Below, one piece after another: positions 1 to 32,670 of a stretch of 32,670 nt of DNA. The stretch comes from Pseudohongiella sp. (GTDB lineage: Bacteria > Pseudomonadota > Gammaproteobacteria > Pseudomonadales > Pseudohongiellaceae): assembly GCA_013204155.1 (NCBI GenBank), contig JABMOK010000110.1, positions 1-32,670 of the forward strand, in the 5' to 3' direction. The notes under the pieces are model-generated. The model searched no databases. It was given only the letters and a program-made list of their open reading frames with translations, and was not told the origin of the DNA. Position 1 is the first letter of the stretch, and every line of letters begins with the position of its first letter. The translations under genes and the position numbers were made by a program.

Positions 1-7
1 ATATTAT

Positions 8-93
8 AGATTGTAGTTATCGATTGTAGTTATCGATTGTAGTTATCGATTGTAGTTACTTGTCGATTGTAGTTACTTGTCGATTATAGATAT
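8..93. repeat. Tandem repeat array upstream of glpQ
   Basis: Three 13-bp copies (8-20, 21-33, 34-46; unit CGATTGTAGTTAT, first base varied) are followed by two 17-bp copies (47-63, 64-80) that add CTTG to the same unit, then a diverged copy at 81-93. The array ends about 33 bp before the preferred glpQ start. It may continue to the left of the window. No ORF runs through it. It is one of about ten short tandem arrays at gene edges here. Confidence 0.9.
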
Positions 94-125
94 CGAATTT
101 CTGTTGACTAAAAATGGTAAGGCTC

Positions 126-1151
126 ATGAACGTGTTACGAAAGTTACGATTAATAGGTGTGTTGCTTATGGCTACTGGAGTATCTGCACAAGCTTTCTCT
201 CAAAAAATCGTGGTCGCCCACCGTGGTGCCAGCGGGTATTTGCCTGAGCATACGCTGGAAGCCAAGGCCATGGCTCACGCCATGGGAGCGGACTATATCG
301 AACAAGACGTAGTAATGACCAAGGACGATCAGCTTATCGTATTGCACGATATCACTCTCGACAGGACCACCGATGTTGCCGATCAGTTTCCGGCTCGAGT
401 TCGGGACGATGGCAGATTCTATGCCATAGATTTCACCCTGGAAGAGATACGCCGGCTTAATGTCAGCGAAGGATTTTCAATGGTCGGCGGCGTTAAGAAA
501 CAAAGCTTCCCCAATCGATTTCCGATGGGGAATTCTCAATTTCGCGTACCAACATTCGCCGAAGAGATCGAGCTAATTCAGGGCATGAATAAATCTACCG
601 GCAAAGACGTTGGTATTTATCCAGAAGTAAAATCGCCGGAGTTTCACCGCGCCGCCGGCAAAGATATCAGTACCGCCGTGGTAAAAATGTTAAAGCACTA
701 CGGTTATACCAGTAAGCAAGACAAGGTATTTCTACAGACTTTCAGTTTTGAAGAATTAAAAATTATTCACGACGAAATTCTTCCGGCTGCTGGAGTCGAG
801 TTGAAACTGCTTCAGTTAATTGACAATGCGGACACCAATCCATGGATGTTCGAAGCTAACGGGATGGAAAAGCTGGCCAATTTTGCCGATGGAATCGGGC
901 CGGAGAAAAGTCTGATAATCGATCGCGCTTCGACGAAATCGAAATTACTTATTACCGATCTGGTGGACAGGGCTCATGCGGCTGGCATGTTGGTTCACCC
1001 CTATACTTTTCGTTTAGACCCGGGCCAGGTGCCACGATATGCGGACAGCTTCGAGGAAATGTTGGATTTATTCTACTTCAAGGCAGATATCGATGGCGCT
1101 TTCTCGGATTTTCCCGATAGAGTTGCCGACTTTTTGAAGAACAATAAGTAG
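126..1151 (+). CDS. glpQ: Periplasmic glycerophosphodiester phosphodiesterase GlpQ
   Basis: Hydrolyses glycerophosphodiesters from phospholipid turnover to glycerol 3-phosphate and an alcohol, in the periplasm. The protein follows E. coli GlpQ from recall over its whole length. The HRGASGYLPEHT motif has the catalytic His-Arg at residues 32-33, the metal-binding E59 and D61 lie in YIEQD, and the second catalytic His is H75 in VLHD. STGKDVGIYPEVKSP and DGIGPEKSL also match. I prefer the ATG at 126 over the one at 114, because AAGG lies 5 nt upstream and the resulting 341-residue product opens with a clean signal peptide ending near SAQA. No glycerol 3-phosphate transporter gene lies next to it in the window. 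Short tandem arrays sit on both sides, and the downstream one begins at the stop codon. Confidence 0.95.
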   Translation: MNVLRKLRLIGVLLMATGVSAQAFSQKIVVAHRGASGYLPEHTLEAKAMAHAMGADYIEQDVVMTKDDQLIVLHDITLDRTTDVADQFPARVRDDGRFYAIDFTLEEIRRLNVSEGFSMVGGVKKQSFPNRFPMGNSQFRVPTFAEEIELIQGMNKSTGKDVGIYPEVKSPEFHRAAGKDISTAVVKMLKHYGYTSKQDKVFLQTFSFEELKIIHDEILPAAGVELKLLQLIDNADTNPWMFEANGMEKLANFADGIGPEKSLIIDRASTKSKLLITDLVDRAHAAGMLVHPYTFRLDPGQVPRYADSFEEMLDLFYFKADIDGAFSDFPDRVADFLKNNK

Positions 1152-1270
1152 TAGTGGGATATGTAGTAGTGGGGTATGTAGTAGTGGGGTATGTAGTAAA
1201 GAGATAATTAGTAAAGAGATAATTAGTAACGAGACTCTCGGTAGCGGAATAATGAGTAGCGGATTAAGTA
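1148..1270. repeat. Degenerate 15-bp tandem array starting at the glpQ stop codon
   Basis: Eight units of 15 bp, each starting with GTA, begin at 1148, 1163, 1178, 1196, 1211, 1226, 1241 and 1256, with one 3-bp slip at 1193. The first three are nearly identical (GTAGTAGTGGGGTAT type), the next two are identical (GTAAAGAGATAATTA), and the last three are diverged. The first unit contains the TAG stop of glpQ. All frames are quickly closed by TAG and TAA within the units. Confidence 0.9.
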
Positions 1271-1315
1271 GTTGCCGCTAACTTCATGCTCGATGTCTGG
1301 CAATACCATCGCGCA

Positions 1316-3781
1316 TTAGAATTTGTAGCGTATCCCGATAAAACCAGCTCGGGGGGAGCCTGCTCCGAGAAAGATGGGAATAGTCATATCTTCAAGCACC
1401 GGCACTTCGACTTCGCCAGGCTCTTCGCCCAATAAACCAAAGCTTTCATATTCTTCGTCGAGCAAGTTTTCCAGCTTGGCAAATATTTCCAGTCTCTGGT
1501 TAATGCGGTACCGCCCGCGAAGATTTACTACCCCATAGCCGGACACTTCGCCTAATTGATTGGACTCGTCTCCACGTATTACCTGGCTGTCATTGCTTAA
1601 GATATCGAGGCCAAGGTTCACGCCATTGTGGAGCTGGTAATCCGCTGTCAGCTTGAACTGATTTCGCGGAATACCTGGAATGCTATCGCCGCGACGTACG
1701 TTGATCTTACCTGCACTATCTGCAAATTCATGATTAGGACTTAATACCTGGAAATCATCTTCAAAACTTGCATCGACAAAGCTGTAGGCCAGCAACCAGC
1801 TAAGGCTCCGCCATTGACCTCTCAGGCTACTCTCGAAACCTGCTCGCAGTGTCTCATCAACATTGGCAAATAGGCCGGTAGAACGGCCGGTGGTTTGAAA
1901 CAGGATGTCGTGTTTATTCGTGGTGTGAAAGAAGCCAAGGGAATAGCCAAGGTTGTTGATAAATCCGCGCGCGCCCAACTCAAAGCTTTTCGCGATGACA
2001 TCGTCCAACGGCGGATCTGCAAGAAAGGCATTGGGAAGGCGACATTCAAGATCGACATCAGCCGGATCTTCACCCGCCGCGATCGCATAGGCCACCGCCA
2101 GATCAAATACTCCGTCGTTGCAGGCGAGCTCGATCGGAGTTGGCGCTCTCGATGATTCGCTATAGGATGCATACAGATTGTGATCTTCGCTGGCTTGCCA
2201 GGTAATGCCAACAGATGGGTTGAGTCGAAAGAAATTGTGATCGCCATTCAGTTCCGGGCGCTGGCCGGATCTATCTCGCAAGACCACATTAGTATTGTTA
2301 GCACGGGCAGAAATCGTAACGGCCAGTGCGGTATTCAAATCCAGAGTATTGGTGAAATACAGGCTGCTGGATTCGGTTTGGGTATTGATAGAAGTTGCGG
2401 CCGCGTCGACGAACGTGCCTGTGCCTAGCCCAATGGTGAGTCGAGTAATCGGATTCATATTCGCAAGCTCGAGCACCGAATTAAATTTTGACTCGCCCTT
2501 ATAATAGGCTCCGCCAGCAATCAGCTGACTGTTATAGCCCAGGAAGTTTCCCGTTAAGGTCCACTGAAAATCCGCGCCGGTGCTATTCTGATCGCGATCA
2601 CTCAGATTATTAATTCCCTGGTCGGAAAGAACACCGGTTCCAGAAAGCTCGCCGGAAAAACTTTCCAGATTAAATTCTTGTTCAGCATGCAGCAGCAAAG
2701 AACGTTGATTAAGGAAAGTTTCGAGTGCATCGACATCGTTGAATTGGCTAGCGCAGATAGCGTTATTGTCCAGCCCTAGCAGTTCCAGCGCATTGGTGTC
2801 CAATCCGTCGATCAGTTGCTCGCTAGCACCGAGCTCGCAAATCGAAAAATCAGAGCTGTCACCGTTAAAGGAATCAGTTTTGTTTTGTCGATAGAAAATA
2901 TTGCCACCAAAACTGATGTTAGCACTGACTTCCTGTGCAAAATCGAGACTGATCATTTGCAATTTGTTGGCGGTAATATCGGGTCCGGTAAACAGGGCCT
3001 TACGGTCAAGCTTTAACAGCTCGACAGGTGATGCCCCATTACCAATCAGATCAGAATCGCCGTATTGATAATTAAGATTTAGTCGGCTCAAGTCGGAACG
3101 CCAACCGATGCTTCCATAGAAATTCAGCGCCTGGGATTTCGATTCGTCCCGCCAACCGTCTTCATCAAAATATTCCAGATTGCCGTAGTAGCCAAGGGAG
3201 CCATTGTTAGCGCCCAGCTCCAGGGTCGTTGTGGTTCGGTTGAAAGATCCTTTGCTGATTTCGGCGCCGAATCCTTCAAAATCGAACCCGTCTTTCATCT
3301 CGATAGCCAGAGACCCGCCAAGGCTGTTGAGGCCGAACAGGGGATTCGCGCCGCCGGCCAGCGTTATGTTCTGGATAGCCGACTGTGGAAGCAGATCCCA
3401 ACTCACCGCATCACCCAGAGGTTCATTAATCCGCACCCCGTTCTGATAGACGGCAAGCCCCTGCGCCAGACCTAGCAGTGGAGAAGCGGTAAACCCCCGG
3501 TATTGCAGGTCGGGTTGCAGCGGATTGTTTTGCGCGTCATTGAGGGAAATGCTGGTAAAGCTCTGTCTTAGGAAATCGGCGATAGTCAGGGAGTTGGCAT
3601 TCTCGAGGTCATTGGCATTGGCATTCTGCACTGGGAAAGGGATCTTGTCCTTATCCAGGCCCGCTCCGGCTGGCACCACGCCGATAACCAGCAGTTCTTC
3701 AGGTTCCTGGGCGAAAGACTGTAAGCCCACTGTCTGCAAACCAACAGACAGCGTAAACAGTAAAGCCGGAAAGCCGCGCAT
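1316..3781 (-). CDS. TonB-dependent outer-membrane receptor
   Basis: An outer-membrane beta-barrel with an N-terminal plug, for energised uptake of an unidentified substrate. The sequence shows a signal peptide ending near QSFAQ, a plug domain (DLQYRGFTASPLLG, then GVRINEPLGD and GGANPLFGLNSLGGSL, typical plug strands), a long barrel of alternating polar and hydrophobic strands, and a C-terminal strand ending in Phe (GIRYKF), as outer-membrane barrels require. I start it at the ATG ending at 3781, preceded by AAGGGG; an open frame continues to 3904 but its 41 extra residues are Cys- and Arg-rich and unlike a signal peptide. The product is 821 residues. A TonB box is not obvious, though PEELLVIG near the mature N-terminus could serve. 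Nothing nearby identifies the ligand. Confidence 0.93.
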   Translation of the reverse strand: MRGFPALLFTLSVGLQTVGLQSFAQEPEELLVIGVVPAGAGLDKDKIPFPVQNANANDLENANSLTIADFLRQSFTSISLNDAQNNPLQPDLQYRGFTASPLLGLAQGLAVYQNGVRINEPLGDAVSWDLLPQSAIQNITLAGGANPLFGLNSLGGSLAIEMKDGFDFEGFGAEISKGSFNRTTTTLELGANNGSLGYYGNLEYFDEDGWRDESKSQALNFYGSIGWRSDLSRLNLNYQYGDSDLIGNGASPVELLKLDRKALFTGPDITANKLQMISLDFAQEVSANISFGGNIFYRQNKTDSFNGDSSDFSICELGASEQLIDGLDTNALELLGLDNNAICASQFNDVDALETFLNQRSLLLHAEQEFNLESFSGELSGTGVLSDQGINNLSDRDQNSTGADFQWTLTGNFLGYNSQLIAGGAYYKGESKFNSVLELANMNPITRLTIGLGTGTFVDAAATSINTQTESSSLYFTNTLDLNTALAVTISARANNTNVVLRDRSGQRPELNGDHNFFRLNPSVGITWQASEDHNLYASYSESSRAPTPIELACNDGVFDLAVAYAIAAGEDPADVDLECRLPNAFLADPPLDDVIAKSFELGARGFINNLGYSLGFFHTTNKHDILFQTTGRSTGLFANVDETLRAGFESSLRGQWRSLSWLLAYSFVDASFEDDFQVLSPNHEFADSAGKINVRRGDSIPGIPRNQFKLTADYQLHNGVNLGLDILSNDSQVIRGDESNQLGEVSGYGVVNLRGRYRINQRLEIFAKLENLLDEEYESFGLLGEEPGEVEVPVLEDMTIPIFLGAGSPRAGFIGIRYKF

Positions 3782-3945
3782 ACATCCCCTTAAACTACTT
3801 ACTACGCAAATGGACAAAGCAAAGCGCCGAGTATAGCAGAAGCATCCTCGGGTAAGCAGCGACATACCGTCAGGACGAAAGGCTACGGCGTTAAGGGAGT
3901 TCACTCCCGCTAGCCAAACAAGACGCCGGACATTGGAAGAAACTT

Positions 3946-3974
3946 TTGACGCCTGATTCCCAGACAGGTAGATT
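3946..3974 (+). promoter_or_regulatory. Sigma-70-like promoter for the dehydrogenase at 4021
   Basis: TTGACG at 3946-3951 and TAGATT at 3969-3974 are separated by 17 bp, in the divergent gap between the TonB receptor and the dehydrogenase. Transcription would begin near 3981, about 40 bp before the start codon. The match is 5/6 and 4/6 to consensus; it has not been tested. Confidence 0.5.
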
Positions 3975-4020
3975 CACTCTCAGACTTACTCATCCCATTG
4001 CGTGTCACACAGGAGAGGAA

Positions 4021-4713
4021 ATGGCGACGGTCCTGATCACTGGAACAAACCGAGGAATCGGCTATCAATTTGCACAGAAATTTCTACTGCGCGGTGACCG
4101 TGTATTGGCAACTTGTCGAAGCATCGAGATTGCCGATGAGTTGAAGCAGCTGGGAGTTACTCATCCGAATCTGGAAATACTGGAGTTAGATGTCTCCTGT
4201 TCGGAATCGATGCAAGATTTTCCGCATTTGTTGCACGGCGAAGCCATCGATATTTTCGTTAATAACGCAGGAGTCTACGGGCCGCAAAGCAGCGCTTTTG
4301 GAGCGATCAATGGGCCAGCATGGGCGGAGGTTCTGCAGATAAACGCGATTGCGCCCTTATTACTCACCCAACTTATAATCGATAATCTACGCAAGGGTAA
4401 GGACAAGAAGCTGCTCTATGTCACTTCCAAGATGGGTTCTATCGAAGACAATAACGGCGGCGGTTCATACATTTACCGGAGTTCGAAAACAGCCCTCAAT
4501 TCTGTGGTGAAGAGCTTGTCGGTGGACCTGGCTAGCGAAGGATTCAAAACCGCGGTGCTGCATCCGGGCTGGGTACTTACGGATATGGGAGGACCCAACG
4601 CACTCATCGATACCGACACCAGCGTAACCGGCATGATGCAAGTGATCGATGAGCTTGGGGTAGAGCAATCCGGGAGTTTTTTCAATTATGACGGCAGTAT
4701 TATTCCCTGGTAG
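4021..4713 (+). CDS. Short-chain dehydrogenase/reductase, C-factor-like
   Basis: A 230-residue cytosolic SDR of the C-factor/sniffer type, an NAD(P)-dependent oxidoreductase with unknown substrate. It has the nucleotide-binding TGTNRGIG near residue 8, the structural NNAG near residue 82, and the catalytic YRSSK (Tyr and Lys four apart) preceded by the SKMGSI segment that supplies the Ser. PGWVLTDMGGP after it is typical of the C-factor subgroup. An AGGAGAGGAA ribosome site lies directly upstream of the chosen ATG, so I do not use the longer frame that opens at 3946. It is divergent from the TonB receptor and followed after about 150 bp by the next gene on the same strand. Confidence 0.92.
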   Translation: MATVLITGTNRGIGYQFAQKFLLRGDRVLATCRSIEIADELKQLGVTHPNLEILELDVSCSESMQDFPHLLHGEAIDIFVNNAGVYGPQSSAFGAINGPAWAEVLQINAIAPLLLTQLIIDNLRKGKDKKLLYVTSKMGSIEDNNGGGSYIYRSSKTALNSVVKSLSVDLASEGFKTAVLHPGWVLTDMGGPNALIDTDTSVTGMMQVIDELGVEQSGSFFNYDGSIIPW

Positions 4714-4830
4714 TTTGATTGACAAGGCAGGGAAATGCTCCGCTTATGGCGATACCCTTCTGCTATAGCTTTTTTTGCGAGTATCGATCCCCTAATCGAA
4801 ATATGATAAGGTAGGCGCCTTTTTTGCCAG

Positions 4831-4863
4831 CCACTCTGGCTTCCACTCTGGCTTCCACTCTGG
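4831..4863. repeat. 12-bp tandem repeat abutting a start codon
   Basis: Two full copies of CCACTCTGGCTT (4831-4842, 4843-4854) and a partial third (4855-4863) end one base before the ATG at 4865. The array occupies the position where a ribosome-binding site would be, and no good Shine-Dalgarno sequence is visible. Confidence 0.9.
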
Positions 4864-4864
4864 A

Positions 4865-5497
4865 ATGAAACGACACATGCTGCAGCGAATTTCGCGCGTA
4901 CTAATAATGGTGCTGTCTTGCCTATCGGCCAAGGTAGCGATAGGGCATGGCGGGGTTGCCTATGAAGAAGACCTGTGTGTTATCAACATCAATTTCATGC
5001 AGGCGCATTTCACTGTGTTTCAACCCGAAACCAGAGACAGCGATGAATTCTGTGAAGAATTACCGGATGTCGCTCGATCGGTTTTTGTTATGCAATATCT
5101 GCACGAATTGTTGCCAGAGATGTTGCTCGATTTTCGCATTATTAGAGACGTCAACAATGTTGGAACCTACGCGACGTGGGAAGATATCCAGGCGATCGAT
5201 GATTTGGAGGCAGCGACGGTCTACTATGAATCGCCCCGAATTGAGCCCGGCGGCTATTTTAGCGCGAGTTACGAGTTTGCTGCCAAGGGGACGTATATCG
5301 GCATCGTAACTGCCGAGCATCCAGTCGAAGATAGATTCTATAACGCCGTATTTTTCTTTAAAGTGGGTGGGCCGGACTACGGTAGCTTCCCTGTTTTTAT
5401 TGGATTTCTAATCCTTCTCCAGCTTTTGTACTGGTTGAGTAGTGGAGGCCTGATTCGTCTTCGGCAACGGCTTGACAGAAACCGACAGGCACTCTGA
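4865..5497 (+). CDS. Periplasmic protein with C-terminal membrane anchor, unknown function
   Basis: A 210-residue protein I cannot assign to a named family. An N-terminal signal peptide (about residues 1-27) is followed by HGGVAYEEDLC. The middle is a soluble domain with two Cys (C38, C63) and several His (H28, H48, H80). A hydrophobic segment near residues 178-194 is followed by a basic tail, so the domain should face the periplasm. If signal peptidase cuts after AIG, the mature protein would begin with His28, as in some copper-binding periplasmic proteins; that is inference. The start codon has no clear ribosome site because a tandem repeat fills the space. Another tandem repeat overlaps the stop codon. 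Monocistronic by appearance. Confidence 0.8.
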   Translation: MKRHMLQRISRVLIMVLSCLSAKVAIGHGGVAYEEDLCVININFMQAHFTVFQPETRDSDEFCEELPDVARSVFVMQYLHELLPEMLLDFRIIRDVNNVGTYATWEDIQAIDDLEAATVYYESPRIEPGGYFSASYEFAAKGTYIGIVTAEHPVEDRFYNAVFFFKVGGPDYGSFPVFIGFLILLQLLYWLSSGGLIRLRQRLDRNRQAL

Positions 5498-5540
5498 TTT
5501 CTGCTTCTGATTTCTGCTTCTGATTTCTGCCTCTGAATTT
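5493..5540. repeat. 13-bp tandem repeat across a stop codon
   Basis: Three copies of TCTGATTTCTGCT (5493-5505, 5506-5518, 5519-5531, the last ending in C) and a partial fourth. The first copy contains the TGA stop (5495-5497) of the upstream gene, so the stop codon has been duplicated along with the unit. Confidence 0.92.
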
Positions 5541-5567
5541 CATCCTCCAGCCCGAAAACAGGCTTCT

Positions 5568-5586
5568 AATTCAATTTTTTTGAATT
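5568..5586. other. Small AT-rich inverted repeat
   Basis: AATTCAA at 5568-5574 and TTGAATT at 5580-5586 flank a T-run. It could be a weak terminator for the upstream gene, but the stem is only 7 bp and all A/T except for one G:C pair. Confidence 0.3.
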
Positions 5587-5744
5587 CCTCGTTACAAGTT
5601 TACGCCACGTAACACCACAAGCATTACAATTCTTCGATGCCCTAAACGCACGTTTACCGACCTGGCTTCAGTCACAAACAATTGCGCCGATGAATAGGAG
5701 GTGTAAACTTTACTTCTTGGCCCATTGTCTTCAGGTAATTTTGC

Positions 5745-6296
5745 GTGAATACCAAAATTCTGAGATTGAATAAGGCCGGTGTACCAGTAAGTTGGCTAAC
5801 GCGTGAACAGACAGCAACGCTATTAGTTAAGGATCTGGTAATCTGGTCTCTCGGTAGCACCGTGATAGAAATGCACGGGGGTTACAATCGCCGGGGTGTG
5901 CAATCTATTCTACGCTTGCCCAGCATTATTGCCTGCCATGGTAAAGTCCACACAGAATGCTTCGACCCTCCTCTGGAAAATAAATTTCTTTTCCGTCGCG
6001 ATAAAAATATCTGTCTCTACTGTGGAGAGCAGTTTATTGTTGCCGACCTGTCGCGGGATCATGTGCAGCCGCTGTCAAAGGGAGGAAGAGATATTTGGAC
6101 CAATGTTGTCACCTCATGTCGACGCTGTAATAACCGCAAAGCCGACAGAGTGCCGGAGCATGCCAATATGCAATTACTGGCCATTCCCTTCGTGCCGAAC
6201 CAATATGAATTTCTCTATTTGTCTAACCACAATGTGCTGGCCGACCAGATGGAATTTCTCAGTGCCAGATTCTCTCGTCATATTCAGCTCGGCTGA
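5745..6296 (+). CDS. HNH endonuclease family protein
   Basis: A 183-residue protein with a C-terminal HNH/zinc-finger nuclease domain. The two zinc-binding pairs are C90-x2-C93 (CLYC) and C125-x2-C128 (CRRC). Between them lies SRDHVQPLSKGG with the D105-H106 active-site pair, followed by the conserved N120 in WTNVV; CNNRK closes the motif. The N-terminal part (KILRLNKAGVPVSWL) resembles stand-alone chromosomal HNH proteins, not homing or phage enzymes. I use the GTG at 5745, with AGG about 9 nt upstream. Its cellular role is not known to me, and no methylase or toxin-immunity gene lies alongside. Confidence 0.88.
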   Translation: MNTKILRLNKAGVPVSWLTREQTATLLVKDLVIWSLGSTVIEMHGGYNRRGVQSILRLPSIIACHGKVHTECFDPPLENKFLFRRDKNICLYCGEQFIVADLSRDHVQPLSKGGRDIWTNVVTSCRRCNNRKADRVPEHANMQLLAIPFVPNQYEFLYLSNHNVLADQMEFLSARFSRHIQLG

Positions 6297-6448
6297 TTGT
6301 TAAGGTAGCTAATCCAGCTCAATTAGTCTGCTACAAAAACTTGGGGCGGGAGAAGCTTGCCATCAGAACTCAGGCTTTTAGGCGTTCCTCAGTTTAATAA
6401 GAACTCACTCAGCGAGCCGCTGGTTTCATGGGGGGAAAAGGAGATTGC

Positions 6449-7498: not shown

Positions 7499-9628
7499 AT
7501 GCTAAAAACTCGGCAATCAACTAATTCCGCGAATCAAATAGCAGAAAAACTGGGTATTACCATGAATCTAACGAACATGAATCTAACGAACATGAATCTA
7601 ACGAACATGAATCTATCGAACATGAATCTAGCCAAGTCTCTTAAATCCGCGTTGGCAATTCTCCTGCTGGTCAGTACAGGGCCGTTGTTTGCCGAAGTAA
7701 CAAGCGTTGAAATCACCCATCGAGAAACCTTGTCCGATGAGGCTAGCGATTTCACTTATGAAGCGGTCTACGGCGTGCTGCATTTCAGCCTCGATCCCGC
7801 TGATCCGGCCAATGCGGCGATTACGGATATCCGCTATGCGCCGGTAAATAGCCAGGGTTTGGTAGAATTTTCAGCCGATTTCAAGATGTTGGTGCCACCT
7901 GCTTCAATCGCTAACGGAGGATTGTTGTATCACGTTAATAACCGGGGTAGAAGTACAGTTCCTCCAGAGATATCCCTGCAACACCCCTTAAGCGCCATGG
8001 GCTTTACTTATCTGGTTACCGGTTGGATTAACGAACTGCAACCCCGGGAGGATCGTTTGCGCCTGCACGCACCGATAGTTGGATCTACGCAAAACCCGAT
8101 TACCGGTGAAGTTCGCTACGAAGTCAGTGTCGGCGAGGCAGCAAACGGGGTGAATATTGCGACGGATGGACATTTGGCCTACGAACCAACGGTGGCTGGA
8201 TTGCAGAATGTGCGTTTGAATCAACGCCTGTATCAGGACGACCCTCGTATTCCAATTGAGAGCTCGCAGTTCAGTCTCGATGTTGAACCAGAACTTGAAA
8301 ACAATCAGGCCCTTATCACGCTCAATCTGGATGGCGGATTTCAGCCCGGCTATATCTACGAACTAGTCTATGAAGCCAAAAATCCGGTTCTCGCTGGAGC
8401 GGGCATGGCAGCGATTCGCGACATGGTTTCACTGATTCGTTTTGGTGGAGATAATGCAGAGCAACTGGACCAACTGAATCTGCCGACAATCGAGAATGCG
8501 GTGGCCTGGGGTAATTCCCAGAGCGGACGTCTATTGCGACAGTATATGTATGACGGTTTCAATGCAGACCTGGAAGGTCGCAAGGTATTTGATGGCATGA
8601 TCCCGGTTATTGCGGGTAGCGGCTACGGCATGTTTAACAACCGCTTCGCCATGCCCACAAGAACCAATGGTCAACACTCCAATCATCTATTCCCCAATGA
8701 TTTATTTCCGTTTACCTATGGCGAAAGCACCGACCCTTTTACTGGTCGCAGCGATAGCATATTAGGCAAGTCGCGCGCTACCAATACCGTGCCCAAGGTA
8801 ATGCATATCCAGACCTCCAATGAATATTGGCTACGAGGCGGCTCACTTCCGCATACTAACCCGCAAGGGACTCTGGATGCTGTGCTTCCAGAGGAAGTGC
8901 GTTTCTATACCATCGGCGGCTCTCAACATGGCTCCGGCAGTGGTCAGCCCGAACCGGCGAATTCGGGTCAGTTGCCGCGAAATCCAAATATGTGGACACC
9001 TTTCGAAGACTCGCTGATCGTTGCGATGTATAACTGGGTAGCCAATGATGAGCAACCGCCGGCATCCAGATATCCCAAAATTGCCGATGGCACTCTGGTC
9101 CCCTCTCACACCGAGCGTGGCATTAACCGCGATGCATGGAATCGCTTAAGTGGAGTCAATCATCCCGCTGCAATCTATGTCCCCGCCTACGTGGACTATG
9201 GTGATAGATGGGAGGATCAACGCATCGTCGATCGACATCCAACATCGGCCAGTCAGTACTACCGTCCATTGGTGCCGGCGGTAAACACAGACAACAATGA
9301 CTTTGCCACCAGTACAGTTCTTCCGCCCCTAACACAGGTGCCACTTGGCACATTTATACCCTGGAATCTAAGGGCGGTTGCCAGTGGCGCGGAAAAATCG
9401 CTGGCGCGATTGTCCGGAGGCTACATTCCTTTTTCGGCGAATACCGCAACAGCGGTGCAATCACGGGATCCAAGAAATTCGATAGCGGCCTTATACGCTT
9501 CATACGATGATTATCTCGAAAAATACGAAGCGGCCACTGACAAGCTGATCGAAGAGGGCTATCTGCTGCCTGGCTTTAAACAAGTGATTATGAATATCGC
9601 GAACAGTAACGGCTCGGTATTCGAATAG
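7499..9628 (+). CDS. Secreted alpha/beta hydrolase-domain protein
   Basis: A 709-residue exported protein of the large 'alpha/beta hydrolase domain' family (Abhydrolase_10-like), with unknown substrate. The nucleophile region is GNSQSGR at residues 338-344, where S340 is the likely nucleophile. A hydrophobic signal segment around residues 48-65 ends near LFA. The start at 7499 has AAGGAG 5 nt upstream, which places an unusual stretch before the signal peptide: four and a half copies of the pentapeptide MNLTN, each with its own ATG (7562, 7577, 7592, 7607, 7622). Any of those could also serve as a start and would give a shorter n-region. It follows the permease gene by 41 bp. Confidence 0.85.
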   Translation: MLKTRQSTNSANQIAEKLGITMNLTNMNLTNMNLTNMNLSNMNLAKSLKSALAILLLVSTGPLFAEVTSVEITHRETLSDEASDFTYEAVYGVLHFSLDPADPANAAITDIRYAPVNSQGLVEFSADFKMLVPPASIANGGLLYHVNNRGRSTVPPEISLQHPLSAMGFTYLVTGWINELQPREDRLRLHAPIVGSTQNPITGEVRYEVSVGEAANGVNIATDGHLAYEPTVAGLQNVRLNQRLYQDDPRIPIESSQFSLDVEPELENNQALITLNLDGGFQPGYIYELVYEAKNPVLAGAGMAAIRDMVSLIRFGGDNAEQLDQLNLPTIENAVAWGNSQSGRLLRQYMYDGFNADLEGRKVFDGMIPVIAGSGYGMFNNRFAMPTRTNGQHSNHLFPNDLFPFTYGESTDPFTGRSDSILGKSRATNTVPKVMHIQTSNEYWLRGGSLPHTNPQGTLDAVLPEEVRFYTIGGSQHGSGSGQPEPANSGQLPRNPNMWTPFEDSLIVAMYNWVANDEQPPASRYPKIADGTLVPSHTERGINRDAWNRLSGVNHPAAIYVPAYVDYGDRWEDQRIVDRHPTSASQYYRPLVPAVNTDNNDFATSTVLPPLTQVPLGTFIPWNLRAVASGAEKSLARLSGGYIPFSANTATAVQSRDPRNSIAALYASYDDYLEKYEAATDKLIEEGYLLPGFKQVIMNIANSNGSVFE
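7562..7630 (+). repeat. 15-bp in-frame tandem repeat encoding MNLTN units
   Basis: Units ATGAATCTAACGAAC at 7562, 7577 and 7592, a variant at 7607 (one A to T change) and a partial copy at 7622. Because the unit is five codons long, copy number changes would keep the reading frame and simply lengthen or shorten the segment ahead of the signal peptide. Confidence 0.95.
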
Positions 9629-11446: not shown

Positions 11447-11468
11447 AATGGCACAAGAATGGCACAAG
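11447..11468. repeat. 11-bp direct duplication
   Basis: AATGGCACAAG occurs twice back to back (11447-11457, 11458-11468), about 50 bp upstream of the beta-helix lipoprotein start. Confidence 0.85.
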
Positions 11469-11528
11469 CTGTGTATTTGCAAAATCTTTCATGAAGGGTT
11501 TCCCCTTTAGGTCTGCCTTCTTCTCGCT

Positions 11529-11563
11529 GGAACAACTCATTGGAACAACTTACTGGAACAAAG
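11529..11563. repeat. 13-bp tandem repeat downstream of marR
   Basis: GGAACAACTCATT (11529-11541), GGAACAACTTACT (11542-11554) and a partial GGAACAAAG (from 11555). The array lies in the gap between the MarR gene and the beta-helix gene. Confidence 0.85.
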
Positions 11564-12139: not shown

Positions 12140-12184
12140 TTTAACATTAAACACTTTAACATTAAATAGTTTAATGCTAAAGTA
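12140..12184. promoter_or_regulatory. Candidate MarR operator
   Basis: ACTTTAACATTAAA (12153-12166) and TTTAATGCTAAAGT (12170-12183) are inverted copies around a 3-bp centre, matching at 13 of 14 positions. The same region reads as three direct 15-bp units beginning TTTAA at 12140, 12155 and 12170, so the operator may hold more than one dimer. It sits between divergent genes, one of which encodes a MarR protein. Confidence 0.7.
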
Positions 12185-25269: not shown

Positions 25270-25383
25270 CATCAAATATCGACGAGTGCAATGAATTCCC
25301 TCTAGCGTTCTGATTGCCCGCAGCAAGATTACTTGTTCCACGAAATGGAATATGATGCTGTAAAACAAAATAAGGAAGGCAGC

Positions 25384-27273: not shown

Positions 27274-27454
27274 CGTTGCTTCGACAATTCTGCTAGGTCG
27301 CTAGCCCATCACCGAACCTGTAGCCTTTGCCATTGCAAAACAGTGTCCCTATCTTGATGTTGGCGGTTCGCTTGAGGTGTCAGAGGCGATGCAGATTTCC
27401 GTTTAGGGAAATTGAAAAATAGAGAAGGCGTCGAGCCTCCTGGATGATGTATGT

Positions 27455-27778
27455 ATGAGTTTAAAGCCGAATAACATTTTTGAGTTTTTGCCAGCGAATC
27501 TGGACACAGAAGTGTTCGAGAATATTTTTCAAAGCGGCGAGTTAAAGGTAGAGCGAATAATTTCCAAAGGACACAGCTCTCCTGCTACCCAATGGTACGA
27601 CCAGGCTCAATCCGAGTGGGTAATGATTCTCCAGGGAGAAGCAATAGTTGCAGTAGAGAATGATGAGGACCAGCATTTGCTGCCTGGTAGTTATTTAAAT
27701 ATACCGGCGCACACCCGACACAGGGTGAAATGGACAAGTTCCGAGGTCGAAACCATATGGCTTGCTATTCACTATTAG
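27455..27778 (+). CDS. Small cupin-domain protein
   Basis: A 107-residue single-domain cupin. The second cupin motif is PGSYLNIPAHTRHRV, with the metal-ligating His, and the first motif region is SPATQWYDQAQSEWVMILQGEA. The first motif lacks the usual HxH and has QWYDQ instead, so metal binding is uncertain. Similar small proteins bind metals or small ligands in diverse roles. No clear ribosome site. It begins a run of four small same-strand genes (cupin, SnoaL-like, GNAT, RibD-like) separated by gaps of about 80-140 bp, which are probably not a single operon. Confidence 0.85.
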   Translation: MSLKPNNIFEFLPANLDTEVFENIFQSGELKVERIISKGHSSPATQWYDQAQSEWVMILQGEAIVAVENDEDQHLLPGSYLNIPAHTRHRVKWTSSEVETIWLAIHY

Positions 27779-27873
27779 CGCTGGTGACACATAATAGTCA
27801 AATCACCAAGCACAGCTTAAGGTCCGCTTCTTGGCAAAGGCGTTAACGGCGCTTATCTCGGATGAAGTATTAA

Positions 27874-27929
27874 TGGACTATTACTTACGAACTATTACTT
27901 ATGGACTATTACTTATGGACTATGAAGCA
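27874..27929 (+). repeat. 14-bp tandem repeat containing start codons
   Basis: Units TGGACTATTACTTA at 27874, a variant at 27888, an exact copy at 27902, then a partial copy from 27916. Possible ATG starts fall at 27873, 27901 and 27915. Because the period is 14 bp, the frame changes with each copy; 27873 and 27915 are in the gene's frame, whereas 27901 leads to a 12-codon dead end. Confidence 0.9.
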
Positions 27930-28271
27930 GCGGTAGCCTTCGCAGAGGACTGGATCGATTCCTGGAATAGCCACGATATCGAACGAATTCTGAGTCACTA
28001 TGCGCAAGAGATTGAATTTTATTCCCCTCTGATTGTCGAGAGATACGCTGATCTAACGGGAGTCATCACAAGCCGGGTGAAACTCAAAGAATATTTTTCA
28101 CTAGGGTTAGCGAAGAACACTGCACTGAAATTCAAATTATTGGAAGTTCTCGTTGGAGTGAATCAAATATTGCTGTATTACGAAAACGCCCGTGGTGGTC
28201 GAACGGGAGAACTTTTCGAGTTTGGCTCGGGATCTAAAGTAATTCGATCATCGTCGTGCTATACAAACTAA
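27915..28271 (+). CDS. SnoaL/NTF2-like protein
   Basis: A 118-residue protein of the SnoaL-like (NTF2 fold) type, identified by AFAEDWIDSWNSHDIERILSHYAQEIEFYSPLI and the alpha+beta layout after it. Members are small cone-shaped isomerases, hydratases or ligand-binding proteins; function is unknown here. I start at the ATG at 27915, the last one in the tandem repeat, because this makes the product open with the family's usual first helix. An in-frame ATG at 27873 would add the 14 repeat-derived residues. No ribosome site is evident for either. Confidence 0.82.
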   Translation: MDYEAAVAFAEDWIDSWNSHDIERILSHYAQEIEFYSPLIVERYADLTGVITSRVKLKEYFSLGLAKNTALKFKLLEVLVGVNQILLYYENARGGRTGELFEFGSGSKVIRSSSCYTN

Positions 28272-28352
28272 TATCAGCATCGAAGACAGGGTTAACTGTC
28301 AAATCAGGGCGGGAATGTACTCGCAAATTACTCTGCAAGGGTATTATAAATT

Positions 28353-28790
28353 TTGAGATCTCGGCAAACCTATTCGATTGTTAGCGCAGACTCGGAGCCT
28401 CAGCACTTGAAGCAATTTCGAGAGTGGGTTGATGCGCAGTGGGACGAGGTCGATCCTTTTTCCGGTGTCGCTGGGGGGATTTTCGTACCGCCCCCAATAC
28501 TCGCGATTGATGATCAAAAGTTATTGGGCGGTCTCGCGTTCACGAGTTCCTCAATCCCCGGTGGCGAAGAAGCAGGGGTTTGGGTAAATGCTCTATTAGT
28601 TGCTACGGAATATCGAAGGATTGGCATTGCTTCTGAGCTTATTAAAGCGGCAGTAGTCGAAGCAGGACAGTTTAAGCTAAAAGAACTGTTCGTCTATACC
28701 GATGTTCCCGAACTGTATCAGAAGCTTTCCTGGCTCGTCGTGGATGGCCCGGGCGAATCTACAGTGCTAAAAAGAATTGTCATAAATTGA
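28353..28790 (+). CDS. GNAT-family N-acetyltransferase
   Basis: A 145-residue GNAT protein transferring an acyl group from a CoA thioester to an unknown amine. Motif A, VNALLVATEYRRIGIASELIKAAV, carries the acyl-CoA binding R-x-x-G-x-A version of the usual Q/RxxGxG/A. The N-terminal strands (YSIVSAD...LKQFREWVDAQWDEVDPF) and the late KELFVYTDVPELYQKLSW are typical. The frame starts at a TTG (28353) with an AAGGG 8-10 nt upstream; no ATG is available before the conserved part, so the start is uncertain. Confidence 0.85.
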   Translation: MRSRQTYSIVSADSEPQHLKQFREWVDAQWDEVDPFSGVAGGIFVPPPILAIDDQKLLGGLAFTSSSIPGGEEAGVWVNALLVATEYRRIGIASELIKAAVVEAGQFKLKELFVYTDVPELYQKLSWLVVDGPGESTVLKRIVIN

Positions 28791-28874
28791 GACTAAGAAC
28801 ATCGGGCTCAAATCAGCAAGGACACATTACAGCGTGTTTCTATTACAAACCTTACGTCGACACAGGTCCAGACC

Positions 28875-29411
28875 ATGGAAATAACTTACTACCTGGCAAG
28901 CAGTGCTGATGGTTTCATCGCAAAGGATGATGGTGATGTTGCCTGGATGGAAGAGATTGGTATTGCCTACGATCACAGTGGCTACAACGAATTCTTCTCC
29001 AGTATAGATGGGCTCATCATGGGACGAAAAACCTACCAGATGATTCAGGATTTTGCTTCGTGGCCGTATGAGGATAAGCCGACCTGGATTTGTTCTCATA
29101 ATAAGTTTGAGGCGATGCAGGGCTGTAATCTGCAGAAGGAGTCCCTGGCCCTCGAGGCGGTCGCCGCGGCAGATAAAGCAGGCCTTAAACATTTGTGGTG
29201 TGTCGGCGGTGGTGTGTTGGCCTCCGTGTTATTGGAAAACAATTTGCTGGACAAGTTATTTGTCACCCAACTGCCTATCGTGTTGGGAAGCGGAATTCCT
29301 ATGTTTAGCTCAATTCAATCCAGCAAAAAACTGGTTTTACAAAGTTCCAGCACCCACACGGCAGGATTTTCTCAAATGATTTATCAAGTTAGTAAAAATC
29401 CCGAGCAATAA
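28875..29411 (+). CDS. Dihydrofolate reductase / RibD C-terminal family protein
   Basis: A 178-residue reductase-fold protein of the RibD C-terminal/YyaP type. YYLASSADGFIAKDDGDVAWM, IMGRKTYQ and the GGG of VGGGVLASVLLENNLLDKLFVTQLPIVLGSG are the family's nucleotide-binding and core signatures. It is probably an NAD(P)H-dependent reductase of unknown substrate; neither folate nor riboflavin genes are nearby. The ATG at 28875 follows ACAGG. Convergent with the gene at 29484, with no clear terminator in the 72-bp gap. Confidence 0.9.
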   Translation: MEITYYLASSADGFIAKDDGDVAWMEEIGIAYDHSGYNEFFSSIDGLIMGRKTYQMIQDFASWPYEDKPTWICSHNKFEAMQGCNLQKESLALEAVAAADKAGLKHLWCVGGGVLASVLLENNLLDKLFVTQLPIVLGSGIPMFSSIQSSKKLVLQSSSTHTAGFSQMIYQVSKNPEQ

Positions 29412-29483
29412 AATTCTCGTAATAAAACCCTGACAAAAAAGTATAAACAATGCAGCTGAAGCCGCCGCGATAATTACACGGCG

Positions 29484-30509
29484 TTACTGCGCTTCCATTT
29501 GTTCAAGTCTCCTGGCGCCGGCCAGAATTCCTGCCATGCTGTGGTTGCCTTCATGACAGGCATATTCATAGATGGGCGCGTCGGTTCTCGAGAGTGGGTA
29601 CTCGCCGGAAAACTGTGCAGTGAATACTGTTGGATCGTCTACGGTAAATCCATAGATCAGTTTATTGCCAGTCTCTCTGCGAAAAGTTTCAATGAGGGTC
29701 ATATTCTCCACCGGCATGCCGCGCAACGTATGCCAGTTGTTGAAGTATTTGGTTTCTACTACCAGCGTATCGCCTTCCCAGCGACCGATGGAATCGCCCA
29801 TCCATTTTCTATGCGCTTCTCCGGCTGGATTACGTTCATCGGTAATCTTGATAATGCGCGTGTCATGGACCATTTCGGCGGTGATAGTGACATAGCCTGG
29901 AGACTGGTTGAATTGCAGATGGCTGTTGTAGATCACCGGGCTCATCACCGGGCCAGCAAGATTACCAAAGCCGACCAGACAGCGCTCGCCTAGCCCACGT
30001 CCCTCGGGGCCGTCGCTGCTACGACCATTGCTAGCGACTCTGAGTGCTTGCAGGCGTTCAGTTAATCCAGGCACACGCTCGGGCATGCGTCCATTGGCAG
30101 GATCGGTGATCGCCGAGGTTCTAAACTCGCCGTTGATAGTGGGAATGAATTTCGCATCCTCGCGCCAGAATAAATCGTAGTTGCCAATTGACGGCAGCGA
30201 TTCAGCCGCTTCCGGTGGCGGTCGGTTGGGGTCTAATGGCTGGTCATTCTCGGCGAATTTTTGCTGCACCACGCTTTCCAGGGCCACAGCCTCTGCTTCG
30301 GTGTAGACGCGTTTCTCGCCCAGTTCGCGGGGTCGCTCGAACGGCATTACCGTCGCATGTTTCCATACTCCCTGAAGATCAGGCACGCCCCATTCGGTCA
30401 TCGGCGTTTGATATTCTTGTGCGCCAGCCAAGCCGACAAAAAAAATCGGGCTTAGTAGTAGGAGAAATTGTAGTAGGAGAAATTGTAGCAGGAGAAATTG
30501 TTTTTTCAT
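29484..30509 (-). CDS. Secreted conserved protein of unknown function
   Basis: A 341-residue exported protein. The signal peptide has an extra-long hydrophobic core, because three 15-bp repeats encode QFLLL-type units (residues about 4-18) ahead of SPIFFVGLAGAQ. The mature protein begins QTPMTEWGVPDLQGVWKH, a start (WGxPDLQGxW) I recall in many secreted proteins of environmental bacteria, but I know no function. FNQSPGYVTITAEMVHDTRII and MGDSIGRWEGDTLVVETKYFN are conserved-looking core blocks. TGGAAG lies upstream of the ATG. It follows the copper-monooxygenase-like gene on the same strand by about 80 bp and may be co-transcribed. Confidence 0.82.
   Translation of the reverse strand: MKKQFLLLQFLLLQFLLLLSPIFFVGLAGAQEYQTPMTEWGVPDLQGVWKHATVMPFERPRELGEKRVYTEAEAVALESVVQQKFAENDQPLDPNRPPPEAAESLPSIGNYDLFWREDAKFIPTINGEFRTSAITDPANGRMPERVPGLTERLQALRVASNGRSSDGPEGRGLGERCLVGFGNLAGPVMSPVIYNSHLQFNQSPGYVTITAEMVHDTRIIKITDERNPAGEAHRKWMGDSIGRWEGDTLVVETKYFNNWHTLRGMPVENMTLIETFRRETGNKLIYGFTVDDPTVFTAQFSGEYPLSRTDAPIYEYACHEGNHSMAGILAGARRLEQMEAQ
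30461..30506 (-). repeat. 15-bp in-frame tandem repeat in a signal peptide
   Basis: Units GGAGAAATTGTAGTA (30461-30475), GGAGAAATTGTAGCA (30476-30490) and a third partial copy (30491 to about 30506). On the minus strand they encode three FLLLQ units in the hydrophobic core of the signal peptide. Each copy added or lost would lengthen or shorten the core by five residues. Confidence 0.93.
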
Positions 30510-30590
30510 TTTTATCTTCCACTAAGTAAAAGGCAGAGCATTTGAGCGGCCTTTCTGCAGTTGTCCTGCAGGTTTAATTTCTTTGCTAAT

Positions 30591-32276
30591 CTAATCCTTG
30601 TGAGCCTTCCAGATTATTTCCCCGAAGAACATCTCGTCCCAGCTTTGCTCCCCCCATGGAATGGGCCGGGAAGGATCAGGATTGGCAAGGTTCTGGGCGG
30701 AATTATCGAAATGTGCCGTGGAGGTGATTTTTGTTCCCGCCGGCATAGATATTGGTTTTTCCAAATCGTAGGTCAGTTGCCAGGCATAAGAATAATCAGC
30801 GATGTTAATTAATTCCTCGCGTCTGCCATCCGGGTAATCAGCAACCATTCGTAAATCTTTTCCGCGGAAATGCATATGCGGGTGATACTGATAAACATCG
30901 GCGTTTTCAGGGAGTATGAATGAGTTACTCACCTCGAAGTTTTTTGCAAAGGCAGGGATAGTGCGCCAGTCATTCGCAAAATTACCGATCAAATGCGACT
31001 TCATGCGCTCCTGGGGCACCACATCGTCCGGGTAGAACCACAGACCGAACTCACTCTCATCAATTGCTTCCCTGCCGCTGGTTGTATAGTGCATGGTCAC
31101 GTTTATCACACTGTCTTTTTTCAGTAAGCCACCGGTATTAGGCGGTTCAATACGAGGCTCGGCACCCGGTACATAACGATTTAAGACGGCTACATCTGGA
31201 TCTCGGCGTGGAGCCGTGTCGCCTGCCCCGGATACACTGCCGGTAGCATGATGTACGACAGTACGATCACCGGGAATAAATTCACTGGCTCTTAACCAGC
31301 GATCTTTTTCCATACCGACGATCGGTACTTGAATATGAACATACTCGAGAACCCCTGTTGCCGGAATCTCTTGCGCGGGTATTTTGACGATTAAGTCAGG
31401 CTCGCTACCCACATTCCATTTAGTGTCAGGCCAGGTGAGTGCGGCGAGAGGATCGGTGTCTCCATCGCGTGGAGAACCCGCCTCAACCCAACGTACAATA
31501 TTTTGCGCATCTTCTATCGCGAGGGTTCTACCGTTGCTAAATTTGTGCACATGGGGGTCTACCTGACCCGGCGGCATACGCTTGGTCAGCAATACTTCTC
31601 GAATCATCGGTGACCAGCCTTGCGCCATAGCATAGCTATCAAGGGCGAACGGAGCGATACCGCCCTTGCGGTGACAAGTAGCACAATTCTGCGCAATGAC
31701 AGGAGCGATATCCTTTGTATAGGAAATCGCGCTTTCCGTGCGATAACTAACGTCAGACCCGGACATGGCAACAGCCGCTGTGGAAATAGCTTTGCCATTG
31801 AGGAGGCTGTTTAACGCCGCTTCCAATTCGGGCCCTGTTGGTCCGCGGAAAACAACTCTGAAAGAGTTTGGGTCGAATAAAAATACTTCACCGCTTTTGT
31901 CCACACCAAGGGCTTCGGAGACCAGTTGGGTGTCATCCATCAATACCGGTATGTCCTGGGTGAGGGCGCTGATCTCGGCATTGACCGCGTCTCTGTTCAG
32001 ACGACCCATGGGGTTAATCATGAAAAACTGGATGCCCTGGCTGGCGAAGCGCTTTTGCAGGCCAATGTAGGCAGGCAAAGCTTTGCGCGTGGCATCGCTG
32101 CCGTTGGCCTGCACCAGCAAGGCGATGGCATGATTATCGTCATACCAGCTCATCTGGTGGGAATTACCGATTTGGTCCAGCAATGAAAAATCGCCGACCC
32201 TTTCGGCCCCCTGGCTTAATCCTGAAACCAGTAAGAGGCAGCATGAAACAGATTTAATAATGGCTGGAATTTTCAA
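30591..32276 (-). CDS. Cys-less thioredoxin-like / cytochrome c / PHM-like copper protein
   Basis: A 561-residue exported protein with three parts, numbered from the TTG at 32276. After a signal peptide (ending near SQGA), residues about 27-160 resemble a redoxin or thioredoxin fold but have no Cys (NGSD at the peroxidatic position). A cytochrome c domain follows with CATCH at 198-202. The C-terminal half is like copper type II ascorbate-dependent monooxygenases: an HH pair at 342-343, H396 in VTMHYTTSG, the H-x-H pair at 467 and 469 in HPHMHFRG, and M549 in DEMFFG. These are the CuH and CuM ligand patterns of peptidylglycine hydroxylating monooxygenase. AGAGGGA precedes the TTG; a frame continues to a TTG at 32318. 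The reaction is unknown. Confidence 0.85.
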   Translation of the reverse strand: MKIPAIIKSVSCCLLLVSGLSQGAERVGDFSLLDQIGNSHQMSWYDDNHAIALLVQANGSDATRKALPAYIGLQKRFASQGIQFFMINPMGRLNRDAVNAEISALTQDIPVLMDDTQLVSEALGVDKSGEVFLFDPNSFRVVFRGPTGPELEAALNSLLNGKAISTAAVAMSGSDVSYRTESAISYTKDIAPVIAQNCATCHRKGGIAPFALDSYAMAQGWSPMIREVLLTKRMPPGQVDPHVHKFSNGRTLAIEDAQNIVRWVEAGSPRDGDTDPLAALTWPDTKWNVGSEPDLIVKIPAQEIPATGVLEYVHIQVPIVGMEKDRWLRASEFIPGDRTVVHHATGSVSGAGDTAPRRDPDVAVLNRYVPGAEPRIEPPNTGGLLKKDSVINVTMHYTTSGREAIDESEFGLWFYPDDVVPQERMKSHLIGNFANDWRTIPAFAKNFEVSNSFILPENADVYQYHPHMHFRGKDLRMVADYPDGRREELINIADYSYAWQLTYDLEKPISMPAGTKITSTAHFDNSAQNLANPDPSRPIPWGEQSWDEMFFGEIIWKAHKD

Positions 32277-32318
32277 GTGCAATCCCTCTGCAGTCAGGGC
32301 GGCAATCGTCGTTGCCAA

Positions 32319-32670
32319 CTCTCTCGCTATAGATATTCAGTGTATTTTCGGTGCTTTTTAATGATTTACAGCCTATCACGTAAGGCTTTCAAGTCAATTA
32401 AGTGTTTGCGGCGTGGGGCAGCTTATCGCTTAGTGATCTGGGAGTGAAGGGCATTGGAATTTGTAATATTTCGTGATTTTTCGAAGTTTGTTGAAACTAC
32501 CGTCATTTATTTGTCATGATGGCCTACAGAACAGCAAATTGGATCACATCGGACCTGCTTTAATGAGCCCCAACAGTTGGTTTCAACAATCAGTTTCAAT
32601 TAATCAGTTCCGACAATCAGTTTCAACAATCAGTTTCAACAATCTGTTTCAACAATCAGTTTCAATAATC
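32319..32670. other. Non-coding end region with a tandem array
   Basis: No gene can be supported here. The first 250 bp show nothing I recognise. The last 100 bp form a 13-bp tandem array that is cut off by the window edge. Confidence 0.7.
32571..32670. repeat. 13-bp tandem array at the window edge
   Basis: The unit AATCAGTTTCAAC recurs at 32588, 32602, 32615, 32628, 32641, 32654 and 32667, with one 14-bp step and a few base changes. It continues beyond the end of the window. Confidence 0.93.

Follow-up and report, generated by a model that had tools for sequence, protein, structure and literature searches.

Dense tandem arrays of mostly unrelated units in a Pseudohongiella genome suggest raised in-place microduplication filtered by selection on genes

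A stretch of 32,670 nucleotides from Pseudohongiella sp. (contig JABMOK010000110.1; in the following called the window) contains short tandem arrays whose units are alike in size and different in sequence, and which lie at the starts and ends of genes. This raises the question of how so many of them arose and whether their position reflects a function. All eleven intervals of the original prediction overlapped an array reported by TRF at a minimum score of 30, ten of them at a score of at least 50, and the claimed unit sizes of 11-17 bp hold up as well (Table 1). With only the best-scoring row kept wherever TRF rows overlapped, the window yielded 10 rows with a period of 10-20 and a score of at least 50; 200 first-order Markov shuffles of the same sequence yielded 0.045 such arrays on average and never more than 2. 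In this count the left-end array accounts for two rows, and the array at 1144, kept as a period-30 row, stands outside the 10. The window arrays are thereby confirmed as real. No known RNA families were found in the window.

Table 1. Tandem arrays of the window with their coordinates and the evidence for each.
Feature	Position	Strand	Evidence
Array, 13-bp unit TTATCGATTGTAG grading into a 17-bp variant	4..89		TRF scores 103 and 81
15-bp-unit array over the GDPD stop codon (1149-1151)	1144..1270		TRF to 1234; translation
Perfect 12-bp array, 2.8 copies, immediately before the ORF starting at 4865	4831..4863		TRF score 66
13-bp array, 3.7 copies, over the stop codon of ORF 4865-5497	5493..5541		TRF score 82
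15-bp array, 4.7 copies	7561..7630	+	TRF score 133; translation
Perfect 11-bp duplication, two copies, intergenic	11447..11468		TRF score 44, 100%; weakest of the set
13-bp array, 3 copies, 84% matches, intergenic	11523..11561		TRF score 57
15-bp array, 2.3 copies, between divergent ORFs	12140..12174		TRF score 56
14-bp array, 3.6 copies	27873..27923		TRF score 88
15-bp array, 3.1 copies	30455..30501	-	TRF score 87; translation
13-bp array, 6.9 copies, off the right contig end	32580..32670		TRF score 138

The leftmost array runs off the left contig end and sits upstream of the GDPD gene at 114. The array over the stop codon of this gene degrades rightward, its translation giving six doubled in-frame stops and then three single ones (the stretch 1235-1270 is degenerate and was read by eye). 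At 7561..7630 the start codon itself is repeated, resulting in five in-frame ATGs and MNLTN repeats in the translation; the last of these ATGs, as matched by eye on the N-termini, equals the signal-peptide start of relatives. In the array at 27873..27923, ATG occurs three times (27873, 27901, and 27915), close to where the SnoaL-like ORF 27831-28271 probably starts; the Pfam SnoaL_2 match of this ORF starts at residue 39. Finally, the array at 30455..30501 lies in frame inside the signal peptide of ORF 29484-30509 and encodes LLLQF repeats.

Arrays are more closely packed in the window than in the remainder of the sampled genome (10 rows in 32.7 kb vs. 95 rows in 729 kb; P = 0.015, one-sided), so that the window overstates the genome-wide density about two-fold. 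Arrays of at least four copies (counted as 3.9 or more TRF copies) occurred at 44.7/Mb in this genome (34 in 761 kb sampled; about 155 when extrapolated to 3.48 Mb), whereas 80 named genomes contained 1.2/Mb (2 in 1632 kb) and 17 congeners 1.6/Mb. The density is thus about 40 times that of the named controls. Only one of 22 sampled congeners, G009, is as rich (38.7/Mb, resting on 5 arrays), with G007, G013, G017, G020, and G021 at most slightly raised in short samples; the sampling left out G004 and G008, and the group of G007, G013, G017, and G020 was picked after the tree. In a two-gene tree, this genome (G000) and G009 are parted by poorer relatives. The scan of genome and relatives thus showed this genome to be far richer than most of its sampled relatives, and the suggestion of a lineage-wide process stands as far as the genome itself and G009 are concerned, but not for the other sampled congeners, which are poor or at most slightly raised.

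Tandem repeats of this size class are familiar from the VNTR or minisatellite loci used to type pathogens, which are likely of slippage origin and far fewer per genome. The earlier statement that no described system matches these arrays was too strong, since satellite-rich prokaryotes and Borg elements have already been described. Satellites, i.e., short tandem arrays spread genome-wide and very unevenly among species, were surveyed in Methanosarcina, Methanobrevibacter ruminantium, Burkholderia, and Chloroflexus (Subirana and Messeguer, 2019; PMC6749651), M. ruminantium having many unique, unrelated units as observed here. By the criterion for prokaryotic satellites (tandem units 10-200 nt long, present in four or more copies and at many loci), the 34 arrays in 761 kb belong to this class. 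Table 1 of that survey, which covers species with more than 20 satellites, gives 23/Mb for the densest bacterium and 4.1/Mb for the densest gammaproteobacterium by the survey's own method, compared with 44.7/Mb by TRF here, the methods being different; some Methanosarcina are denser still (60-89/Mb). The satellites of Burkholderia and Chloroflexus stem from 6-8 nt repeats (PMC6749651), whereas the units of this genome are mostly 12-16 nt long and for the most part unrelated. Borg repeats resemble the arrays in their nearly site-unique units, the preserved reading frame inside genes, the presence of arrays at contig ends, a unit composition bias, and partial flank repeats (Schoelmerich et al., 2023; PMC9879509). 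Arrays of at least 50 nt with at least three units number 5.9 per 100 kb here (45 in 761 kb, imperfect ones included), a frequency similar to the Borg mean of 46 per 829 kb. However, Borg repeats are perfect and lie to 43-65% in ORFs (PMC9879509), whereas only 13 of these 45 arrays reach at least 95% matches (1.7 per 100 kb) and most arrays are intergenic; A hardly exceeds T on the sense strand (0.337 vs. 0.307). Borgs are also archaeal extrachromosomal elements (PMC9879509), whereas the host genome here is bacterial, and a Borg as carrier was rejected given that the window genes match ordinary bacterial families, all four genes searched having homologues in same-genus genomes. The TAACTGA repeats of Beggiatoaceae are likewise short intergenic tandem arrays in gammaproteobacteria, but consist of one fixed heptamer located mostly just upstream of start codons (MacGregor, 2015; PMC4679880). 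Such a single-motif type was rejected, as most units resemble each other no more than shuffled ones do, only 2 of the 99 TRF rows show a period of 7, and there is no excess near starts. Among the titles listed in the literature searches, none reported such repeats in this lineage. The phenomenon is therefore known in kind, its density being unusual for a bacterium.

Perfect duplications are in excess as well. In non-coding DNA they occurred at 5.70 per 10 kb in this genome (78 in 137 kb; 4 in the Markov shuffle), compared with 0.48 in the named genomes (11 in 230 kb; shuffle 4) and 0.28 in the 17 congeners (3 in 105 kb; shuffle 1), and copy numbers fall steadily, with 50, 15, 7, and 6 cases for 2, 3, 4, and 5 or more copies. 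In coding DNA they were about nine-fold commoner (3.36 per 100 kb, n = 21, vs. 0.36 in named genomes and 0.37 in congeners), while G009 had 1 in 112 kb. The reading frame is kept, with a period divisible by three in 20 of the 21 perfect coding duplications and a unit length divisible by three in 30 of 34 TRF arrays within genes (54 of 60 in the named genomes). TRF coding arrays of period 10-30 are hardly raised (5.12 vs. 4.28 per 100 kb in named genomes), and the raised coding rate therefore rests on the 21 perfect duplications. Genes were called with a simple hexamer scorer with uncertain starts, so that an upstream array can pass as coding, e.g., that at 7561-7630. Of the 66 perfect duplications with two copies, 40 had at least three extra matching flank bases (3.5% expected if duplication were blunt); such matches also occurred in 6 of 12 cases pooled from the other genomes, hence they are no peculiarity of this genome, and they could be remnants of longer arrays that shrank.

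Taken together, we consider it probable that the arrays are independent minisatellites born from a raised rate of microduplication and filtered by selection on genes. Short stretches, mostly of 12-20 bp, would be duplicated in place across the genome, probably through strand slippage between short pre-existing matches, and once two copies are present the array would grow and shrink by further slippage. Within genes, selection would purge most duplications and spare in-frame ones, which often lie in signal peptides or start regions, whereas intergenic duplications would persist. The proposal of a slippage-like process sparing gene cores is thus well supported by the genome-wide density, the frame filter, and the second rich genome, G009. 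The arrays would instead reflect an ordinary duplication rate if they were lost unusually slowly, due to weaker selection, a small population, or poor repeat deletion. This is the strongest of the competing explanations, although we regard it as rather unlikely: the near-ordinary TRF coding density would fit it, as would the negative outcome of the search for a gene raising the rate, but the perfect two-copy duplications in excess are probably recent. Moreover, the coding fraction (0.82) and the median intergenic length (119 bp vs. 115-122 in larger comparison sets) are ordinary and therefore give no sign of general relaxation.

A satellite family or small mobile element that spread through the genome, with the present differences due to decay, appears unlikely. 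Most of the 82 units compared are no closer to each other than shuffled units, in line with the original observation that units differ between loci. Nine unit pairs did score 11-13 (compared with 1-2 pairs in three shuffled sets), two of the nine being parts of one array, and an array on contig C70 differs by two bases from the left array of the window over a 20-base probe. The units are also not entirely random: of 91 non-coding array rows, 7 carried the motif TGTAGTT (0.26 expected), in both orientations, and this motif is also about twice as frequent as predicted by the Markov model outside arrays (23 vs. 11.6); none of 20 units examined from G009 contained it.

The arrays were also suggested to act in translation start, stop, or at mRNA ends, and regulatory elements at gene ends, such as binding sites or mRNA-end elements comparable to those proposed for the Beggiatoaceae repeats, would be the corresponding explanation, which we consider very unlikely. 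Intergenic arrays fell into tandem, divergent, and convergent regions in numbers of 43, 15, and 13, close to the 42.1, 18.1, and 10.9 expected from base pairs, no type being favoured. When compared with random placement within the arrays' own intergenic regions (20 of the 125 arrays of this genome lay outside gene-to-gene regions and were unplaced), overlap with starts showed no excess (6 vs. 10.5 expected, P = 0.07 for fewer), and only stop codons were overlapped more often, at a borderline level that would favour regulation (20 vs. 12.5; P = 0.006, uncorrected for the 8 tests made). Within the window the arrays do lie at gene ends, but in the larger sample such placement is mostly accounted for by intergenic space as such; under the proposed microduplication, arrays would seem to lie at gene edges because selection clears genes while intergenic arrays stay. 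Selection against duplication within genes can accordingly yield clusters of repeats at gene edges without any edge function. A weak motif shared by a subset of units, TGTAGTT, would speak for regulation, but units vary by locus and this subset occurs in both orientations. Compared with the remaining intergenic DNA, the units are GC-poorer (0.36 vs. 0.42) and more GC-skewed. They are also less structured, which would again favour regulation, but the weaker folding comes largely from base composition.

At three window genes the arrays are not conserved in relatives. Among 20 same-genus loci with a near-full GDPD gene (the scan left out locus L240), five carry a weak array (TRF scores 41-68) at a distance of up to about 165 bp, on the upstream side in two and on the downstream side in three, built from a different unit in each case. 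No array occurred within 300 bp in a further, partial locus from the genus or in two loci from other families. For ORF 7499, 18 of 19 relatives lack an array at the gene start; the remaining one (G003) also repeats the ATG, with a different 15-bp unit, which would be in favour of regulation. In 19 loci homologous to ORF 29484, two of which lack the N-terminus, no array occurred up to 250 bp from the gene; the family is so large, however, that the best-matching gene may not be the orthologue. An artefact of fragmented assembly is hardly credible: 15 of 95 examined contig ends lie in arrays compared with 1.66% of interior positions, but real long arrays likewise break short-read assemblies, most arrays are interior to contigs, coding duplications keep frame, G009 has a like density, with arrays inside contigs of 97 and 302 kb, and the unit at each window end recurs at the end of another contig (contig C173 starts with three copies of the left-end unit on the other strand, and C7 opens with 8 copies of the right-end unit).

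Tandem duplications of this size are uncommon among the bacteria sampled here, and a rich genome beside poor relatives offers a natural comparison for the control of tandem-repeat birth. Going further, one may tentatively speculate that a heritable mutator trait for in-place duplication of about 8-20 bp arose, perhaps twice, in this gammaproteobacterial genus, raising minisatellite density above that of any bacterium in one published survey and steadily supplying new variants of signal peptides, start regions, and stop regions. A repair defect or other genetic cause was not found among five tested enzyme genes, i.e., ExoI, RecJ, ExoVII (XseA), MutS, and the Pol I 5'-nuclease, chosen for their known links to slippage and flap processing. 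A lost repair enzyme was rejected as the cause, since ExoI (PF08411), RecJ (TIGR00644), XseA (TIGR00237), and MutS (TIGR01070) were all present in G000 and G009, and the Pol I-type 5'-nuclease domain PF02739 occurs in two genes in each of the two genomes. In a 30-genome alignment of Pol I pieces, columns that are invariant except for a single genome numbered two for G000 (T to S and P to A), none for G009, and 0-6 for the other genomes (44 for one fragment).

The eleven short tandem arrays listed in the original prediction were all recovered by TRF, ten of them with a score of at least 50, and the window contained 10 TRF rows of period 10-20 at this score versus a mean of 0.045 and a maximum of 2 in 200 Markov shuffles. 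The 32,670-bp window constitutes the entire contig G000:C91 of the source genome (G000; 202 contigs, 3.48 Mb), and an array reaches each of its two ends. The unit of the right-end array (window 32580-32670) also opens contig C7, and contig C173 starts with 3 copies of the left-end unit (window 1-89); these shared units suggest that both contigs are genomic neighbours of the window. Since 15 of 95 examined G000 contig ends lie inside an array, compared with 1.66% of interior positions, the arrays seem to interrupt the assembly and to be under-counted.

The density comparison covered 60 further G000 stretches (761 kb including the window), stretches from 22 of the 24 same-genus genomes, stretches from two further families within the order, and 80 loci taken from named genomes. 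G000 and its congener G009 were array-rich, with the lengths sampled from the remaining relatives being short (9-100 kb each). Within G000, density was higher in the window than in the other sampled sequence (P = 0.015). The value for the named genomes (1.2/Mb) is consistent with the satellite medians of 0-3/Mb given by Subirana and Messeguer, whose method was not TRF and in whose Table 1 no bacterial entry exceeds 23/Mb (PMC6749651). A locus of a genome from another family of the order (L238 of G028), that of a GDPD homologue, carries two perfect 10-bp arrays at 606-670 and 771-835, each of 6.5 copies and with differing units.

Tandem arrays (TRF, at least 4 copies, period 10-200) and perfect tandem duplications (period 8-30, at least 2 copies; numbers in brackets) in the sampled genomes
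Genomes	Arrays	Arrays per Mb (95% interval)	Perfect duplications, non-coding, per 10 kb	Perfect duplications, coding, per 100 kb
G000	34 in 761 kb	44.7 (30.9-62.4)	5.70 (78)	3.36 (21; in frame 20/21)
G009	5 in 129 kb	38.7 (12.6-90.3)	5.39 (9)	0.89 (1)
Four near relatives (G007, G013, G017, G020), pooled	0 in 217 kb		0.91 (4)	0 in 173 kb
17 other congeners	1 in 644 kb		0.28 (3)	0.37 (2)
Named genomes (80 loci)	2 in 1632 kb	1.2	0.48 (11)	0.36 (5)

Concerning placement, the midpoints of 125 G000 arrays of period 8-30 fell into complete intergenic regions (71), called genes (34) or contig ends (20). The 71 intergenic arrays were distributed over tandem, divergent and convergent regions (43/15/13) much as expected from base pairs (42.1/18.1/10.9). 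Each array was additionally re-placed at random within its own intergenic region 2000 times, in eight tests. Arrays had been proposed to concentrate at gene edges; this did not hold for starts, which were overlapped less often than expected (6 vs 10.5, P = 0.07), and received borderline support, allowing for eight tests, for stop codons (20 vs 12.5, P = 0.006), with G009 tending in the same direction (3 vs 1.2, P = 0.11). The six remaining distance classes did not depart from random placement. Taken together, array density around starts and stops was largely that of intergenic space, which tells largely against the gene-edge proposal. Periods were divisible by three in 30 of 34 genic G000 arrays, 54 of 60 in named genomes and 26 of 71 intergenic G000 arrays. 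Half of the genic G000 arrays (17/34 vs 5.3 expected; named genomes 7 vs 6.3) had their midpoint at most 60 bp from a gene end, a number partly due to uncertain called starts.

Perfect duplications were taken as cleaner marks of recent events. By that measure the coding rates indicate that G000 genes are also struck more often, with out-of-frame products absent; however, TRF coding arrays of period 10-30 are nearly as frequent in named genomes as in G000 (4.28 vs 5.12 per 100 kb). Assuming equal birth rates, about 94% of genic duplications would have been removed in G000 (3.36 vs 57 per 100 kb). Copy numbers of the perfect duplications fall off steadily. Slippage between short matches would predict extra matching bases in the flanks, and at least 3 of these were present in 40 of 66 two-copy G000 duplications of period at least 12 (3.5% expected for blunt duplication) and in 6 of 12 from the other genomes pooled, although arrays that have lost copies should leave the same sign. 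A raised rate of in-place microduplication, filtered by selection on genes, is probably the best explanation. We do not put it more firmly because TRF coding density is close to that of named genomes and because the motif TGTAGTT is over-represented outside arrays as well (23 vs 11.6 by a Markov model, about twofold). The readings partly overlap, and their likelihoods need not sum to one.

A heritable mutator trait for in-place duplication of about 8-20 bp, perhaps arisen twice in the genus, is conceivable but rather doubtful. On a midpoint-rooted two-gene tree of 18 genomes, poorer genomes stand between G000 and G009, so that richness arose twice or was repeatedly lost; for malate synthase alone, G009 is the nearest match of G000 (70%), which makes a common origin possible. 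Loss of a repair enzyme was rejected as cause for five candidates, the genes for ExoI, RecJ, the ExoVII large subunit, MutS and the Pol I 5′-nuclease being found in both genomes, and Pol I showed no striking change in either.

It is quite unlikely that a satellite family or small mobile element spread through G000 and later decayed; the TGTAGTT excess outside arrays would favor this, but the likeness among most of the 82 units does not exceed that of shuffled controls, which speaks against it. A small subset shares a core near TTGTAGTTGAAATCA, which may reflect sequences prone to slip or a few copied arrays. TGTAGTT is present in 7 of 91 rows (0.26 expected; two of the seven being parts of one array). 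Compared to other intergenic DNA, units are lower in GC, with stronger GC skew and weaker folding. An array of 13-bp units on contig C70 (L141 6880-6931) differs at two positions, in a 20-base probe, from the window's left-end unit and is a good case of a unit common to separate loci.

The arrays can be regarded as genome-wide minisatellites, a known kind, at a density unusual for a bacterium. They resemble the tandem repeats described for Borg elements in how many occur per unit of sequence, in having nearly unique units, in the filter for reading frame and in interrupting contigs, but differ in their often imperfect copies and mainly intergenic position (PMC9879509). They are not of the TAACTGA type, described as a single heptamer (PMC4679880).

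Individual genes illustrate what passes the filter. The array at 30455 extends the signal peptide of ORF 29484-30509 (- strand). None of 19 homologous loci, two of them missing the N-terminus, carried an array there. The protein had no Pfam match at E 0.001 and belongs to a large paralogous family with 44 matches in G000, 12-56 in each of 24 same-genus genomes (G012 and G013 candidates scored only in part) and none in 13 genomes of other families. The array at 7561 repeats the start codon of ORF 7499 five times in frame, and relatives' N-termini are, by eye, similar to its product from the last copy onward. In G003, otherwise poor in arrays, the corresponding gene carries at its start a separate 15-bp array (L246 3502-3534) in which ATG also recurs but the unit differs; the other 18 of 19 relatives have none there. 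At 1144, the unit spans the GDPD stop codon, which thereby recurs in frame, and 5 of 20 same-genus GDPD loci have a weak adjoining array of a different unit. Translation of window 1149-1260 yields six doubled and then three single in-frame stops behind GDPD, because the unit contains the stop region.
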